Positions 23,584-36,480 of a DNA stretch of 36,480 nt are shown one piece after another (positions within the stretch are counted from its first letter, which is position 1; each line of letters opens with the position of its first letter). The DNA is from a virus. The DNA is taken from the IMG/VR virus record IMGVR_UViG_3300009160_000082, positions 1 through 36,480 of that record, one strand, 5' to 3'. The position numbers were made by a program, and so were the translations under genes. The notes under the pieces were generated by a model, which saw only the letters and a list, made by a program, of their open reading frames with translations, did not search any database and was not told the origin of the DNA.

Positions 23584-26500
23584 ATGGATCCTATTTGCTC
23601 TGCTGAACCATGTCCAGTCATACTGAATTCCACCTGCGTATTTTACGAGGGTGCTAATTTGTTATACACTGGTATCAATACTAATGACAGCTTACAAACT
23701 GCTCTACAAAAAATAGATGCTAAGTTTCAGGAAGCTGCCATAGGATACATATTTAATAATGGTGTTTTTCAATCTGGACCAGGATTACCTGTAGGGCTTG
23801 GAGGAACACTAAATCAGAATACAGTCATTACTAGCAATGGGTATACATTCAGAATGACAGGAACTATTGAATCAGCAGGATTCATAACCACTGGGGGAAC
23901 ATCATCAGACTTTGTTAAAGGAGATGGTAGCTTAGATCCAAATTCCTATCAACCAGCTGGTAACTATATTACAGGATTGGTGGGTGATGGTACAGCAACA
24001 GGTCCTGGATCTGTAGCTTTAACATTAGCTACAGTGAATGCTAACCCTGGTACATATGGTAGTGGAACATCTGTTCCTATCATTACAACTGATGCTAAGG
24101 GTAGAATAGTTAATATTAGTTCTGCATCTATTCCTTTTGCTTCTAGCACTATTATTATTGTAGGTGACATGAGTGGTTCAGGAACCATAGGCACTCCTGT
24201 TACACTAACATTGAACTCAGTTAATAGCAATGTTTACGCTAGTAATACATTCTTAAAGGTGGCTGTAAATGGTAAAGGATTAGTTACATCAGCAGTTACA
24301 GTGGGACCTGGAGACATCATCACAGCATTAGGATACACTCCTGTTCCAGACACTCGCACCATTACAATCAATGGTGTTACAAGAGATCTATCTGCTAACA
24401 GAACATTCAATGTAGGTACAGTGACAAGTGTAGGCATAACTATGCCTTCAGGTTTTACAGTGTCAAATAGTCCCATTACATCTAATGGAGTTATTAATAT
24501 AACAGCCAATGGTACTATTAGTCAATATATAAGAGGTGATGGTTCTATAGGTACATTCACTGCTAGTACAAGTGGTAGTTCAGGTACTGCTGGAACTAGT
24601 GGTAGTTCAGGAACTAGTGGATCTAGTGGGACAGTTGGTACAAGTGGGACTAGTGGAACTAGTGGAAGTTCAGGAACTAGTGGTACAGCTGGTACCAGTG
24701 GAACAAATGGTTCAAGCGGTACAAATGGTTCAAGTGGTACAGCAGGAACTAGTGGCACTACAGGTACAAGTGGGTCATCTGGTACAAGTGGATCGTCTGG
24801 TACAGTGGGTACTAGTGGTACATCAGGGTCTAGTGGAACTAGTGGTACAACTGGTACATCAGGAACTACTGGTACATCTGGGAGAAATGGTACTAGTGGT
24901 ACAACAGGCACATCAGGTACAAGTGGTTCTACAGGAACTACAGGTACAAGTGGAACTAGTGGCACTACAGGAACAAGTGGTACAGCAGGAAGCTCTGGTG
25001 TAAGTGGTATCTCTGGTGGTCAGATTTATTGGCTAAATCTATCTAATAATACAAACACTGCTTTTGGCACACCTACATATAAACAATGGAGTCCTAATCC
25101 GTCTGGTGCTGCACAGCAAACAACTAGTATTACATTAGGTGCTTCAGCTAGTGGAACAGTTGCAACCTTTGCAACAGATAGTGGTGTTCCAAACATCACT
25201 TCATTAAATGGAGGTAACTGGGCTTGGACATTACACTTCTTATCTAGTGCTAGTTCAACATGGGATTTAGATGTACGTTTATATAAATATACAATAGGTG
25301 GTGTTTCTACATTATTAGGAACTACAAATAACGTTGTAACAACAATTGATGGAACAATTGTTGCACAAATATATCTCGACACATTCATACCTGCACAATC
25401 ATTAAATGCAACAGATAGGTTGTATTGTGAAGTGTATGTTATAAATAATGATAGTGTAAGTAGAACATTAACTTTCTATACAGAAGGTTCAACGTATTAC
25501 TCTTACGCACAAACCACATTCAATGCACCTTCAGGTACCTCTGGTACAGCAGGGGCTAATGGTACATCAGGAACTAATGGCTCATCAGGAACATCTGGCT
25601 CCACTGGTACCACTGGTACATCTGGCACGTCTGGAACTAGTGGATCTTCAGGTACAAGTGCATCTAGTGGATCTAGTGGAACAAGTGCTTCTTCAGGAAC
25701 TAGTGGATCTACAGGTACTTCAGGTACCTCTGGTACATCAGGTTCATCTGGTATATCTGGTTCTAGTGGAACTAGTGGGTCTAGTGGAACTAATGGTTCT
25801 AATGGATCTTCTGGTTCATCAGGAACTAATGGTTCTTCTGGAACCAATGGATCTAGTGGTACTACTGGTACATCTGGAATAAGTGGTACTAGTGGTTTAT
25901 CTGGTTCATCTGGTACAACTGGAACAAGTGGTTCATCAGGAACCACAGGTACTAGTGGCTTTAGTGGAACTAGTGGGTCTAGTGGAACTAATGGTTCTTC
26001 AGGAGTTAATGGAACATCAGGAACTAATGGTTCTAGTGGTATAACAGGAACTAATGGATCTAGTGGTACATCAGGAACCGCAGGTACTAGTGGTACTAGT
26101 GGAAGCTCTGGCTCTTCTGGAACAGATGGTTCTAGTGGAACAAGTGCTAGTTCTGGTACAAGTGGATCTAGTGGTACAAATGGTTCTTCAGGGTCTTCAG
26201 GAACAAGTGGAAGTTCTGGTTCTACAGGAACGAGTGGTTCTAGTGGAATAAATGGAAATGGAACAGCTGGTACTAGTGGTGTTGGTTCTCCTGGTACAGC
26301 TGGAACTTCAGGTGTTGGTAGTCCTGGAACAAGTGGAACAAGTGGATTAAATGCTACAGCTGGTACTAGTGGAGTTAGTGGAAATGGAACAGCTGGAACA
26401 AGTGGAGCTACATTTGGTACTGCAGGTACTAGTGGTAATGCCTCAATATTAACTAGTCCTTCTACAACAACAATTCAAATTCCTCTTGCTACATATATAA

Positions 26501-31337: not shown

Positions 31338-32294
31338 ATGGCTATAACAAGAATAGGAGTGTATGCAGAAATCAAGGGGGTTAGTTATAGCCTTCCTTGT
31401 CGTGTTGCTACAACAGCAGCAATTACACTAAGTGGTACACAAACCATTGATGATATTGCTGTTGTTGCAGGAGAAAGAGTGTTAGTAAAAAACCAAGGAA
31501 CTGCATCAACTAATGGTATATATGTTGTTAGTGCTGGAGCTTGGAGTAGATCTGTGGATATGTCATTAGACGATGATGTGTTCCAAGGATTACAAGTTTA
31601 TATTATTTCTGGAACAGTTAGTCAAGGATATGTATACACTATATCAACATCTAATCCAATTACACTTGATGTAACATCTCTTACATTTACAAGAACTTTG
31701 TTTGGTGCTACATCAGGAACTGCTGGAACAACAGGTACTGATGGTTCTTCAGGAACAGCTGGTACATCTGGTTTATCTTTTGGCACAGCTGGAACAAGTG
31801 GATTTAATGGTTCTAGTGGTACAAGTATTGGTTCATCAGGTTCAAGTGGAACTAGTGGTTCTTCAGGAACAACTGGTACATCAGGTTCTACAGGAACAAC
31901 TGGTACAGATGGTTCATCAGGAACTAGTGGATCAAGTGGATCTTCAGGAACAACAACTGGATCTAGTGGAACATCTGGCTCTTCTGGAGCAACATTTGGT
32001 ACATCTGGAAGTTCAGGTACAACTGGTACATCTGGTATATCTAATGGAACTAGTGGGTCTAGTGGAACAGCAGGTGGTGGTGGTACAGCAGGAACAAGTG
32101 GTACATCTGGTTCAACAGGAACATCAGGTACAGTTGGAACTTCAGGAACTAGTGGACTATCCACAGGTACTGCAGGAACAAGTGGTGCATCTTTTGGTAC
32201 TTCAGGAACAAGTGGAGCTAATGGTGTCAGTCTCACTCTTGGATTAACTTATACAGGATCAGTTAGAGCTTTAAATGTTTTACAAATATATTAA
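31338..32294 (+). CDS. Second collagen-like tail fibre
   Basis: 318 residues. Residues about 20-125 are a common phage fibre domain: VATTAAITLSGTQTID, then AGERVLVKNQG and NGIYVVSAGAWSRS. Residues 127-296 are Gly-X-Y triplets like those of the 1493-residue fibre, including GATFGT and GASFGT elements. The C-terminus is a short hydrophobic tail (LTLGLTYTGSVRALNVLQIY). The N-terminal domain normally sits on the virion side of a fibre, and the triplets would form a trimeric stalk. The protein lacks a large distal head, so a downstream protein such as one of the Gly-rich adhesins could cap it. Antisense Pro/Val-rich frames here are shadows of the repeat. Confidence 0.8.
   Translation: MAITRIGVYAEIKGVSYSLPCRVATTAAITLSGTQTIDDIAVVAGERVLVKNQGTASTNGIYVVSAGAWSRSVDMSLDDDVFQGLQVYIISGTVSQGYVYTISTSNPITLDVTSLTFTRTLFGATSGTAGTTGTDGSSGTAGTSGLSFGTAGTSGFNGSSGTSIGSSGSSGTSGSSGTTGTSGSTGTTGTDGSSGTSGSSGSSGTTTGSSGTSGSSGATFGTSGSSGTTGTSGISNGTSGSSGTAGGGGTAGTSGTSGSTGTSGTVGTSGTSGLSTGTAGTSGASFGTSGTSGANGVSLTLGLTYTGSVRALNVLQIY
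31716..32225 (+). repeat. Collagen-like Gly-X-Y repeat of the second fibre
   Basis: About 170 codons (residues 127-296) of Ser/Thr/Ala-rich Gly triplets with no proline seen. The DNA units are similar to those in the 1493-residue fibre gene, giving chances for recombination between the two genes. Confidence 0.88.
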
Positions 32295-32971: not shown

Positions 32972-33832
32972 ATGTTTTTTGATATATTAAATAAAGAAGG
33001 ACTTTGGATATATAATATAACTTCATCTAGTTGGTTTACTTGGGATAAACCTGATCAATATCAAAACTTTTTCATCATGGCTTGTGGAGCTGGTGGTGGG
33101 GGTGGTAATGGTTTTTCAGGAGCAGCAAGTACTAACAGAGGTGGGGGAGGTGGTGGTGCTGGTGGTCAAATCATGAATATGTATGCCCCATCATTTCTTC
33201 TTCCAGATACATTATATATAAGTGTGGGAGCTGGTGGAGCAGGTATTATAAATGGAAGAGCTTCAAGTGTATTAAATCAGGGTAACACAACTTATGTAAA
33301 CTATTATCCAAACTTAAATATAAGTAATATTATATTAAATGCTGCAGGTGGTGGAGCTGGTGGTATAGGATTATCTACTGGAACTGCTGCAGGTGGTATA
33401 GGATTACCCAACTCTCCTACTAACACTTTACTATCTATATCAGCACAAGGAGCAAGTGCAGGAACTCCTGGTGGTATTAATACAGGTGATGTTGGTACAA
33501 ATTTTTCAGCAACAACCTCTTGTATATATGGTGGAACTGGTGGAGGAAGTATTGGAACAGCCAACACTGCTTTTGCAGGAGGAAATATTTTAGCAAGTGA
33601 TGTTCATCCACAAATAAATGGTGGAGCTATAGATTCAAATGGAGGTGATGGAGTTTTTATAAAAAAACCTTTTTCAGCTATTGGTGGAACTGGTGGAGGT
33701 TCTTCTACTACTACTGGTGGAAAAGGTGGTAATGGTGTTTGGGGATCTGGTGGCGGAGGAGGTGGTGGTGGTATTATTGGAGGCAATGGTGGTAATGGTG
33801 GTAATGGTTTTGTAATAATAATAGGATTCTAA
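32972..33832 (+). CDS. Gly-rich adhesin-like tail protein, copy 1
   Basis: 286 residues. An N-terminal beta segment with WFTWDKP is followed by a Gly-rich body (ACGAGGGGGNG, GGGGGGAGG, GAGGAG, GGAGGIG, GGTGGGS) with the short beta stretch LLPDTLYISVGAGG, and ends in GGNGGNGFVIIIGF. The two genes that follow are paralogues with the same order of parts. Gly-rich proteins with this architecture are known at phage fibre tips; in phage S16 the gp38 adhesin forms a sandwich of polyglycine type II helices. A receptor-binding role is inferred from that likeness and from the operon. The start lies one base after the previous stop, and the stop overlaps the next start (TAATG). Confidence 0.7.
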   Translation: MFFDILNKEGLWIYNITSSSWFTWDKPDQYQNFFIMACGAGGGGGNGFSGAASTNRGGGGGGAGGQIMNMYAPSFLLPDTLYISVGAGGAGIINGRASSVLNQGNTTYVNYYPNLNISNIILNAAGGGAGGIGLSTGTAAGGIGLPNSPTNTLLSISAQGASAGTPGGINTGDVGTNFSATTSCIYGGTGGGSIGTANTAFAGGNILASDVHPQINGGAIDSNGGDGVFIKKPFSAIGGTGGGSSTTTGGKGGNGVWGSGGGGGGGGIIGGNGGNGGNGFVIIIGF

Positions 33833-34797
33833 TGATAGATTTTAAATACTTAACATCAGACATGAATGTTGATAGACAAACTTTCTATTCAACTAGTGGA
33901 TTGACATGGCAAACATGGACTAAACCAAAAGGTAGATCTATGGCTTACATGCTCATAATTGGTGGAGGAGGTGGTGGAGGAACTGGAACCCAATTTTTTG
34001 GATTTGTAAATACTCAAGGTGGAGCTGGTGGTGGTGCTGGTGGTATTACATCTTTACTAGTTCCTTTTTTCTTAATTCCTGATACACTATATATACAACC
34101 TGGAACATTTGGTACAGGTGGGCCTTTTGAAAATGGTGGAAGTGCATCAGGACAACCAGGAGCAGCAAGTTATGTATCAGTGTATCCAAATACTAATGCA
34201 AATAATGTTTTAGCTCAAGCTAATGGAGGGGGTGCTGGTTTTGCTGTTACTACTACTCCTGGAGTTGGAGGAGCACCTATTTTAGCTACTAGTACAACAA
34301 AACCTAGATATTTTAGTCTGTGTAATGTAACTTCATATGCAGGACAAGATGGTGGTGGTGGAAGTAACACTGGAAATAATTCTAGTAGAACTTTTACATC
34401 TCCTTGGTCATCTCTTGTAATCAATAGTATTGCCACTGGTGGTGCTGGTGGTGGAGGAGGAGGAGATGGTTATGAATTTGGTGCTGCTGGTGGATATGGT
34501 GGAAGTATAATAGGAGGAGATGATCTATCTACATTTTTAAAAGATGTTAATGGAGGTCCTGCTGCTGCAGGTGCTGGTGGTGCAGGAGGTGATGGATATT
34601 TTAATTTAAAACCTTGGTTATCTGTAGGGGGTGCTGGATCTGGTGGTCAAGTGAACTACGTTTCTGGTGGAGCAATAGCAGGTAAAGCTAATGGATATGG
34701 TAGTGGAGGAGGAGGAGCTGGTCCTGGATCTGCTAATGATGGTGCAGCAATTGGAGGAGATGGTGCTCCTGGAATAGTGATAATAATAAGTTATTAA
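33832..34797 (+). CDS. Gly-rich adhesin-like tail protein, copy 2
   Basis: 321 residues, paralogue of its neighbours. Opening SGLTWQTWTKPKGRSMAYM, then IIGGGGGGGTGTQ, AGGGAGGIT, LIPDTLYIQPG, many Gly-rich turns (GGAGGGGGGDGYEFGAAGG) and the C-terminal strand PGIVIIISY. It is the longest of the three, with extra Gly/Ala loops in the middle. The start overlaps the stop of copy 1. Differences among the three copies lie mainly in the loops between the Gly runs, as expected for receptor-contacting loops. Confidence 0.7.
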   Translation: MIDFKYLTSDMNVDRQTFYSTSGLTWQTWTKPKGRSMAYMLIIGGGGGGGTGTQFFGFVNTQGGAGGGAGGITSLLVPFFLIPDTLYIQPGTFGTGGPFENGGSASGQPGAASYVSVYPNTNANNVLAQANGGGAGFAVTTTPGVGGAPILATSTTKPRYFSLCNVTSYAGQDGGGGSNTGNNSSRTFTSPWSSLVINSIATGGAGGGGGGDGYEFGAAGGYGGSIIGGDDLSTFLKDVNGGPAAAGAGGAGGDGYFNLKPWLSVGGAGSGGQVNYVSGGAIAGKANGYGSGGGGAGPGSANDGAAIGGDGAPGIVIIISY

Positions 34798-34799
34798 TT

Positions 34800-35681
34800 A
34801 TGATAAGTTTTCAAAATTTACCAACAAATGCTAAGGTGACATGGTTCATGCAACCTACATCAGGTAATGAAGTACATACTTGGACTAAACCTACAGGTTG
34901 TAACTTTATATATATAGTTGCTGTTGGTGGTGGAGGAGCTGGTGGTGCTGGATTTTCAGCAGCAGCAGGTAATCAAAGAACAGGAGGTGGTGGTGGAGGA
35001 TCTGCAGCTATGTCATCTATACTTGTACCAGCAGTTTTAATAACAGATTCAATATTTATAAGAGTTGGTAGAGGAGGAACTTCATCAACTGTTCCTACAT
35101 CAACTATAGTATCAGCATATAGAGTGGCTGCAGTGGGTGAATATTATCTAGTTGGATATCCTGGAAATAATGGAAGTGGTGGTACATCAATTATTCCTGG
35201 TACAGCAGGTGCTGGTGGAATTTGTCCTCTCACAGATCCAACATTAACATTTGGATTAGGTCAGGTGGGTAAGTTTTCTGGATTTGATGGAGATGGTGGT
35301 GTAATAGGAGCAATGCCAGGTATGAGTGCTGTTAATAAAAACTGTGATTTTATTCTTTCTGGAGGAGGTGGAGGAGCTGGCATAACAAATAATAATGCTG
35401 GAGGTCTTAGTGGTAGTAACTTATTATCAAACTTTCAACAAACAAATTATTCTACAGCTGTTTCAGGAGGTCTTTTAGGAAGTGCTGGAGGAAATGGTTT
35501 CTGGATACCAAAAACATTTAAGTTTTATGGTGGAGGCGGTGGAGGTTCAAACAATAGTATTGCAGGAGGTAATGGAGGTAAGGGTGCCCCTGGTTGTGGA
35601 GGTGGAGGAGGAGGTGGTGGAACCACAGGTGGAACAGGAGGAAATGGTGGAGATGGGTTTGTTCTTATAATAAGTTACTAA
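34800..35681 (+). CDS. Gly-rich adhesin-like tail protein, copy 3
   Basis: 293 residues, third paralogue: HTWTKPTGCNFIYIVAVGG, GGGGAGGAG, GGGGGGSAAMS, LITDSIFIRVGRGG, GGGGGAGIT, and the end GGNGGDGFVLIISY. Its stop (TAA 35679-35681) lies inside the 3' end of the convergent glycosyltransferase gene, with a 17-bp tail-to-tail overlap and no room for an intergenic terminator. Last gene of the fibre operon. Confidence 0.7.
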   Translation: MISFQNLPTNAKVTWFMQPTSGNEVHTWTKPTGCNFIYIVAVGGGGAGGAGFSAAAGNQRTGGGGGGSAAMSSILVPAVLITDSIFIRVGRGGTSSTVPTSTIVSAYRVAAVGEYYLVGYPGNNGSGGTSIIPGTAGAGGICPLTDPTLTFGLGQVGKFSGFDGDGGVIGAMPGMSAVNKNCDFILSGGGGGAGITNNNAGGLSGSNLLSNFQQTNYSTAVSGGLLGSAGGNGFWIPKTFKFYGGGGGGSNNSIAGGNGGKGAPGCGGGGGGGGTTGGTGGNGGDGFVLIISY

Positions 35682-36480
35682 TCTGTTCAATAACGTCTTT
35701 AGAAGTGATAACCTTATGACATTCAAAATGTTTAGGGCTATCTTCATTTACAGGACACCAATTCCAATCTCCTTTGTTAAATTTAAACAGTGGATTGTTC
35801 CAACATCCATTACATACATCCTTCTTAACTATACGTGTGCAGTTAGAAACAAACTCATGGTCTTCATTAGTGAAATTACTAATCATCACTGTATGTTTAC
35901 CTATAGCCCAGTTCAACCAACTTATACCACTAGACAGTCCTATGTATAAGTCTGCATGATGTAGATAGTTCATTACATTATTAAGGCTTGTGTCCTCAAG
36001 TTTCTCTGCTCCATAGTCTCCTGCTTCTTTAGACATCTCAAACACGCTATATCCTTTTTCTTTATAATAAGAAATCAACTCATCCCAATAATACCAATGT
36101 TTACATTGTGATGTAGATTGTGTGGATATACAAATGTATTTATCTGTTACAGGTCTTTCTCCTGGTGTAAAGTCTATTCTACATGGAAGTTCTTTATAAG
36201 GAAGATTCAATGTGTTGCTAGCTGTCTTTTGTAAAGGAATTGTAGCTGGATGTTCAGGTTCTTTATTAACATCCCAATACCAACCATATTCAAACTGTGC
36301 TACAATATTGTTAACAACCACACCTCTATCTATAAACTGAAGTTCTGGATATGCCTTTTCAAACAAGAAGTTTTTAAATGTAGACACAACCACATCACAC
36401 TGATAGATGTTTTTAAACTCTAAACAGTATGGCATCCAAGCAATGCTATCTCCTAATGAATGAGACTCAAAGGATATCAA
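35665..36480 (-). CDS. TibC/Aah-like protein O-heptosyltransferase (5' truncated by window edge)
   Basis: 271 residues visible; the frame is open to the window edge and the first codon shown (TTG) is probably internal. Diagnostic parts of the autotransporter strand-loop-strand O-heptosyltransferase family in order: SLGDSIAWMPY (8-18), ISTQSTSQCKHW (118-129), YIGLSSGISWLNWAIGKHTVMIS (179-201), and the C-terminal Cys set CNGC (223, 226), WNWC (242), FEC (254), which in TibC binds iron. The family has a GT-B fold and transfers heptose or other sugars from nucleotide-sugar to Ser/Thr on repetitive surface proteins. Here it is phage-borne and convergent with the fibre operon, whose products are exceptionally Ser/Thr-rich, so it may glycosylate virion fibres. 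Modification of host proteins is an alternative. Confidence 0.88.
   Translation of the reverse strand: MISFESHSLGDSIAWMPYCLEFKNIYQCDVVVSTFKNFLFEKAYPELQFIDRGVVVNNIVAQFEYGWYWDVNKEPEHPATIPLQKTASNTLNLPYKELPCRIDFTPGERPVTDKYICISTQSTSQCKHWYYWDELISYYKEKGYSVFEMSKEAGDYGAEKLEDTSLNNVMNYLHHADLYIGLSSGISWLNWAIGKHTVMISNFTNEDHEFVSNCTRIVKKDVCNGCWNNPLFKFNKGDWNWCPVNEDSPKHFECHKVITSKDVIEQISNLL

Follow-up and report, generated by a model that had tools for sequence, protein, structure and literature searches.

Linkage of a short-thumb TibC-like glycosyltransferase to Ser/Thr-rich collagen-like genes in phages and bacteria

IMG/VR virus record IMGVR_UViG_3300009160_000082, a stretch of 36,480 bases (the window), was analyzed with proteins read from the DNA. 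At its end lies the gene of a TibC-like glycosyltransferase, and further inward lies a fiber operon that contains two collagen-like genes (Table 1). Together, these two genes encode 206 Gly-X-Y triplets (in runs of at least four), with 338 Ser or Thr residues in the X and Y positions (82%) and a single proline. A first-pass annotation of the same DNA had placed a member of the autotransporter O-heptosyltransferase family beside Ser/Thr-rich Gly-X-Y genes. The TibC-like gene itself was confirmed, but it runs on the minus strand and lacks its 5' end, which lies beyond the window edge. As for its neighborhood, the richness of the collagen-like genes in Ser and Thr held, but they are located 3.4 and 7.6 kb from the transferase gene, and the three genes adjoining it are Gly-rich rather than Gly-X-Y (PF21722 in the nearest two).

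The complete gene was obtained from a near-identical contig, L002 (from a 68.6-kb record), in which 10809 of 10813 positions agree with the window. The TibC-like gene closes a same-strand run of seven sugar genes. This sugar operon and the fiber operon are convergent (tail to tail), which places the transferase gene outside the fiber operon, with a 17-base overlap between it and the last fiber-operon gene (PF21722). The first gene of the run, a second GT9, has four cysteines of its own in the C-terminal area (CGLHC...C...C), a possible metal site. Many phages carry the TibC-like enzyme fused with further glycosyltransferase domains in open reading frames of ~670 to 1447 amino acids (aa), an arrangement that fits stepwise glycan building on one acceptor. 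Some relatives additionally carry sulfotransferase, APS kinase, FkbM methyltransferase, and 2OG-Fe(II) oxygenases. Sulfated glycans are suggested by genes for a sulfotransferase, an APS-kinase-like protein, and a nucleotidyltransferase-like protein by the sugar operon of relatives.

Membership of the TibC family was supported by several comparisons. The TIGR04414 (hepto_Aah_TibC) score was 211.8 bits for the fragment and 226.2 bits for the 357-aa protein, above the curated cutoff of 200, and Pfam Glyco_transf_9 (PF01075) matched at 3e-8 (33.6 bits; cutoff, 22). TibC entries 4rap and 4rb4 were the only sequence matches in the PDB (E 8e-39). Cutoffs of lipopolysaccharide (LPS) core heptosyltransferases were missed, with 20.0 bits for heptosyltransferase I (cutoff, 185.3) and 16.0 bits for RfaQ (cutoff, 467), and PHROGs offered no model for the TibC-like enzyme. 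An AlphaFold2 model was built from 15 phage homologues (pLDDT 87), and its seven N-terminal strands correspond to the N-terminal beta-barrel domain of TibC. Foldseek matched this model to TibC over the whole length, including the barrel, with a TM score of 0.81, compared to at most ~0.5 for other GT9 structures (WaaC and heptosyltransferase II among the matches). As modeled, the protein is a GT-B-fold (GT9) TibC-like glycosyltransferase.

The catalytic Asp of TibC (D110) as well as the ligand residues T226, K230, and W305 are all retained in the window protein and invariant across 12 diverse phage proteins aligned. All four iron-finger cysteines (TibC C339, C342, C358, and C370) have aligned counterparts, which bears out the four-Cys metal site of the first-pass annotation; iron binding is predicted. 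Other TibC features are altered. TibC R286, which contacts adenine and is required for activity (PMC4358343), is replaced by Val in the window protein and by Val, Thr, Ile, or Cys in all phage proteins aligned, never being Arg. The thumb region comprises 8 residues, versus 19 in TibC and eight genuine bacterial autotransporter heptosyltransferases (BAHTs), so that the beta-hairpin is deleted. At TibC position 300, Pro is replaced by Ser, which is also present in AAH, an enzyme that accepts both ADP-heptose isomers (PMC4358343). Given the missing thumb and the substitution at R286, the assignment of heptose is in doubt, and the name autotransporter O-heptosyltransferase does not apply in its strict sense. 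Transfer of heptose from ADP-heptose, as by TibC and AAH, is compatible with the explanation proposed below, and both the retained equivalents of D110, T226, K230, and W305 and the AAH-like Ser are in its favor; given the missing adenine contact, however, we regard this sugar as a doubtful choice.

For comparison, eight BAHT proteins were fetched from the phylum of Methylomicrobium. The thumb and R286 were present in all eight. Genuine BAHTs scored 484 to 650 bits against TIGR04414, whereas the short-thumb proteins scored reached roughly 190 to 350 bits. A tree of 45 domains contained a branch separating the BAHTs from the short-thumb proteins with moderate support (SH-aLRT 89). Repeats adjoin 23 of the 31 short-thumb members and none of the 14 BAHT-side members, although the eight fetched BAHT loci span only ~4 kb. 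Among repeat-linked bacterial members, some keep Arg at the R286 position and others do not. No autotransporter domain was found among the window and operon neighbors scanned, which were collagen-like proteins, Gly-rich proteins, or sugar enzymes. We propose to define the clade by a thumb region of 7 to 15 residues together with a neighboring Ser/Thr-rich Gly-X-Y gene, a definition that includes the window enzyme. By its sequence, the enzyme falls in a sister clade of TibC that has a short thumb and is tied to collagen-like repeats.

Linkage within the phage lineage was evaluated using homologues of the 1669-aa structural-region protein of the window as a neutral anchor. Anchor homologues were found with an alignment (a single-sequence scan reached 8 loci only), and the resulting 46 IMG/VR records were searched whole. 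Fifteen records contained both the enzyme and Ser/Thr-rich Gly-X-Y repeats, 5 contained repeats alone, and 26 contained neither; every enzyme-bearing anchor phage (15/15) therefore has repeats. When only anchor records of at least 80 kb were considered, 11 had both, 9 had neither, and none was discordant. The tree yielded five independent pairs, all of them concordant (p 0.06 by sign test, and p 0.03 when all records are included). Both the 885-aa gene and the GT4 proteins occur in exactly the same phages as the enzyme and in 0/9 of the repeat-less phages. That glycosyltransferases are general to the whole lineage was rejected, as a PF00534 scan gave no GT4 in these nine phages. The closest enzyme-less sibling, L063, has an anchor that is 89% identical and is missing the whole transferase operon. 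The slot of the 1493-aa collagen-like fiber is occupied in L063 by a 2550-aa non-collagen fiber with an S74 chaperone, the N termini of the two fibers being 62% identical. The first-pass annotation had named a lack of linkage to fiber genes in related phages as grounds for rejecting its interpretation; the linkage found is very strong.

Two types of 2OG-Fe(II) oxygenase (PKHD-type-like and TIGR02466-like) and a DUF6445 protein are encoded amid or beside the collagen-like genes of relatives and are possible collagen hydroxylases. As an obligatory collagen hydroxylase partner, the 2OG-Fe(II) oxygenase was rejected: it occurs in 3 of 21 phages, is missing from the near-identical L002 and L057, and is accessory at most.

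To cover viral records more widely, 44 records of at least 30 kb were chosen by the presence of (GTS)3, regardless of the enzyme, and 41 control records were chosen by random 14/15-mers. The total lengths of the samples were alike (3.7 Mb and 3.2 Mb, respectively). A TIGR04414 enzyme was found in 20 of the 44 (GTS)3 records versus 0 of the 41 random ones (Fisher p 1.4e-7, a statistic that ignores relatedness). Conversely, repeats were present in 30 of 36 enzyme-bearing records. Five of the six without repeats are 20 kb or shorter, and the sixth, of 55 kb, has the gene ~2 kb from the contig end. The isolated Microcystis phage Mel-JY01 (190 kb) has all 36 of its repeat matches flanking the TibC-like gene. 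Its coding sequence WWT39287.1 is annotated on the other strand from the Ser/Thr-rich collagen-like repeats and appears to be an antisense annotation. A huge phage of 735 kb (L464, LR756501.1) combines 1639 Ser/Thr Gly-X-Y pattern matches with a TibC-like gene.

This type of linkage could also be caused by hitchhiking, in which collagen-like fibers and the sugar operon are swapped as one host-range cassette and the enzyme does not act on the repeats. A shared exchangeable module could give linkage, and adjacency in the window lineage would let one recombination event move both. However, the pairing persists in rearranged gene orders (co-oriented in L036; fused glycosyltransferases in L028-L053) and extends to T4-like and huge phages and to bacterial chromosomes with different neighbors. 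We therefore consider hitchhiking improbable.

Bacterial genome loci with a relative of the enzyme had repeats within 10 kb in 12 of 23 cases. In a number of multi-megabase genomes, the repeat pattern occurred only or nearly only at the enzyme locus: 37/37 matches in L115, 11/11 in L116, 12/12 in L130, 6/6 in L119, 15/16 in L110, and 14/17 in L113. Exceptions were L114 (2/21) and L123 (0/20). The partner in Methylobacter, Methylomicrobium, and a Polaromonas metagenome-assembled genome (MAG) is a small protein that seems to bear an export signal and includes a tract of (GTS)n or (GTA)n. There, the relative stands alone as a glycosyltransferase next to the gene of a (Gly-Ser/Thr-Ser/Thr)n protein predicted to be exported, and the scanned neighbors are ordinary chromosomal genes, including those for Mfd, FAD- or FeS-domain oxidoreductases, a radical-SAM protein, and a subtilase. 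The MAG loci L108, L119, L120, and L130 may represent phage sequence binned with bacteria. The first-pass annotation had regarded the pairing as a new use of the family by a phage; its occurrence on bacterial chromosomes does not agree with a phage-specific role.

The bacterial cases also bear on the hypothesis that the sugar operon remodels host LPS or another surface glycan, leading to superinfection exclusion or seroconversion, and that the link to collagen-like fibers is incidental. Such a function has been stated for pelagimyophages, in which glycosyltransferases are located in the host-recognition cluster (PMC7029224), and it would suit an operon that has several glycosyltransferases and a methyltransferase, as well as GT9 enzymes, which are classically LPS heptosyltransferases. 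It leaves unexplained, however, that related phages with non-collagen fibers lack the whole operon. The stand-alone bacterial enzyme lies by the gene of a (GTS)n protein predicted to be exported, an LPS cluster being absent from the neighbors examined, and the nearest solved structure is a protein O-glycosyltransferase and not an LPS enzyme. Remodeling of the host surface is thus an unlikely explanation. Glycosylation of modified phage DNA bases against nucleases is a common role of phage glycosyltransferases and has been proposed for freshwater actinophages (PMC10202952). Here, the TibC fold, the linkage to repeats, and the exported-protein neighbors in bacteria argue against it, no base-modification gene was seen near the transferase, and we attach hardly any probability to it.

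Taken together, comparative sequence evidence makes it probable that the short-thumb TibC-like GT9 enzyme glycosylates the phage's own Ser/Thr-rich Gly-X-Y fibers and that the operon elaborates the glycan. The substrate put forward in the first-pass annotation is strongly supported by the linkage. During infection, the enzyme would add the first sugar to Ser or Thr of the Gly-Thr/Ser-Ser/Thr repeats, the presumed acceptor, in the collagen-like fibers. The role of initiator is inferred because this glycosyltransferase is common to the phage and the stand-alone bacterial cases. The second GT9, the 885-aa GT4-containing protein, GT2, GT4, and the methyltransferase would then extend or cap the glycan. 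Glycans may replace proline and hydroxyproline, so that the triple helix is stabilized or shielded; stiffening, protease resistance, and masking of receptor sites, the effects suggested in the first-pass annotation, are conjectural. Several observations count against glycosylation of the fibers, in addition to the potential for joint exchange noted above. The beta-hairpin thumb, which is required for the active dodecamer of TibC (PMC4358343), is missing. The transferase gene is on the strand opposite to the fiber genes. The five anchor records with repeats alone (fragments of 30 to 74 kb) and 24 of the 44 (GTS)3 records show no enzyme, and the phylogeny-corrected tests are small.

Further genes of the window are included in Table 1. 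Two very large proteins are encoded in the structural region. The 1669-aa protein has a weak match to uncultured phage cr108_1, and a 288-aa protein matches structural proteins of Flavobacterium phage Fpv1; these matches suggest that the window phage infects Bacteroidota. Opposite the collagen repeats run long open frames (VPLVPEEP...), which result from the composition of the repeats and can mislead gene callers.

Table 1. Coordinates of genes and features in the window and in related records (prefixed by locus)
Feature	Coordinates	Strand	Remarks
TibC-like (GT9) O-glycosyltransferase, C-terminal 271 aa	35665-36480	-	5' end beyond window edge; O-glycosyltransferase activity predicted from sequence
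TibC-like gene, complete, 357 aa	L002:9743-10816		
Sugar operon	L002:2946-10816		Gene order: GT9-like, 308 aa; GT4-domain protein, 885 aa; methyltransferase, 183 aa; GT2, 224 aa; protein without Pfam match, 331 aa; GT4, 335 aa; TibC-like enzyme, 357 aa
Second GT9 of operon	L002:2946-3872	+	
Match to Fpv1 structural proteins, 288 aa	609-1475		
Very large structural-region protein, 3655 aa	7455-18422		
Structural-region protein, 1669 aa	18422-23431	+	Lineage-conserved; anchor in linkage test
Collagen-like fiber, 1493 aa	23584-28065	+	154 Gly-X-Y triplets in runs; X+Y 82% Ser/Thr; one proline; PF01391 2e-57; candidate substrate
Probable virion protein, 946 aa	28482-31322	+	Between both collagen-like genes; without Gly-X-Y runs
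Collagen-like protein, 318 aa	31338-32294	+	52 Gly-X-Y triplets in runs; X+Y 82% Ser/Thr; proline-free; PF01391 7e-14; candidate substrate
Gly-rich protein, fiber operon	32972-33832	+	Gly-X-Y runs poor in Ser/Thr; no obvious substrate
Gly-rich (PF21722) protein, fiber operon	33832-34797	+	
Gly-rich (PF21722) protein	34800-35681	+	Convergent with transferase
Open frames antisense to collagen repeats	24522-24965, 25503-25946, 31622-32236	-	
Sulfotransferase, APS-kinase-like, and nucleotidyltransferase-like genes	L017:12081-12896 (-), L023:10758-11207 (-), L005:1437-1829 (+)		By sugar operon of relatives
2OG-Fe(II) oxygenases and DUF6445 protein	L043:12927-13514 (-), L017:3377-4015 (+), L017:9165-9749 (+)		Amid or beside collagen-like genes of relatives
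Mel-JY01 CDS WWT39287.1	L463 (PP395634.1):739-2298		

Partial parallels exist outside the TibC family. Virion glycosylation has been demonstrated in mycobacteriophages, which likewise glycosylate their own structural proteins, but these are capsid or tail proteins, the glycosyltransferases belong to other families, and no collagen-like substrate is involved. The Mimivirus enzyme L230 presumably belongs to a family unrelated to the phage TibC-like enzyme, and we know of no link between TIGR04414 and the transferases of BclA from the Bacillus anthracis exosporium. For the mycobacteriophage Maravista, virion glycosylation was suggested from two glycosyltransferases (PMC11256854). L230, a collagen lysyl hydroxylase/glucosyltransferase, is similar in being a viral enzyme that glycosylates a viral collagen-like protein, but it hydroxylates Lys and glucosylates hydroxylysine in a eukaryotic giant virus (PMC9614988). 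BclA is likewise a glycosylated prokaryotic collagen-like protein, but one of the spore surface, and Firmicute collagen-like repeats have proline besides threonine (PMC8968730, PMC9614988). The closest relatives, TibC and AAH (BAHT, TIGR04414; 4RAP, 4RB4; PMC4358343), share with the phage enzyme the whole-length fold with its N-terminal barrel, the catalytic and iron-finger residues, and, as proposed here, a repetitive Ser/Thr-containing protein substrate; the phage enzyme differs in having no thumb, R286, or autotransporter among the scanned neighbors, in its collagen-like partner, and in often being fused to other glycosyltransferases. Searches of open-licence papers found none that connects TibC-like enzymes to (proline-free) collagen-like repeats.

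Phage glycosyltransferases are usually explained by modification of host LPS or phage DNA, whereas the comparative evidence presented here points to a specific protein substrate. We lean, with some reserve, towards a widespread and so far unrecognized system common to phages and bacteria, in which a short-thumb TibC-like O-glycosyltransferase is dedicated to proline-free, Ser/Thr-rich (Gly-Thr/Ser-Ser/Thr)n proteins. Sugars would substitute for the proline and hydroxyproline of animal collagen, giving stiff, protease-resistant, and hydrated fibers, and part of TIGR04414 would be misnamed. The presence of the pair in the isolated phage Mel-JY01 and in named Methylobacter and Methylomicrobium strains makes this system directly testable. 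If true, it would unite phage virion glycosylation, proline-free bacterial collagen-like proteins, and the TibC family, and a branch of the NCBI family "autotransporter O-heptosyltransferase," a name that automatic annotation would at present apply to proteins without an autotransporter, would be renamed.
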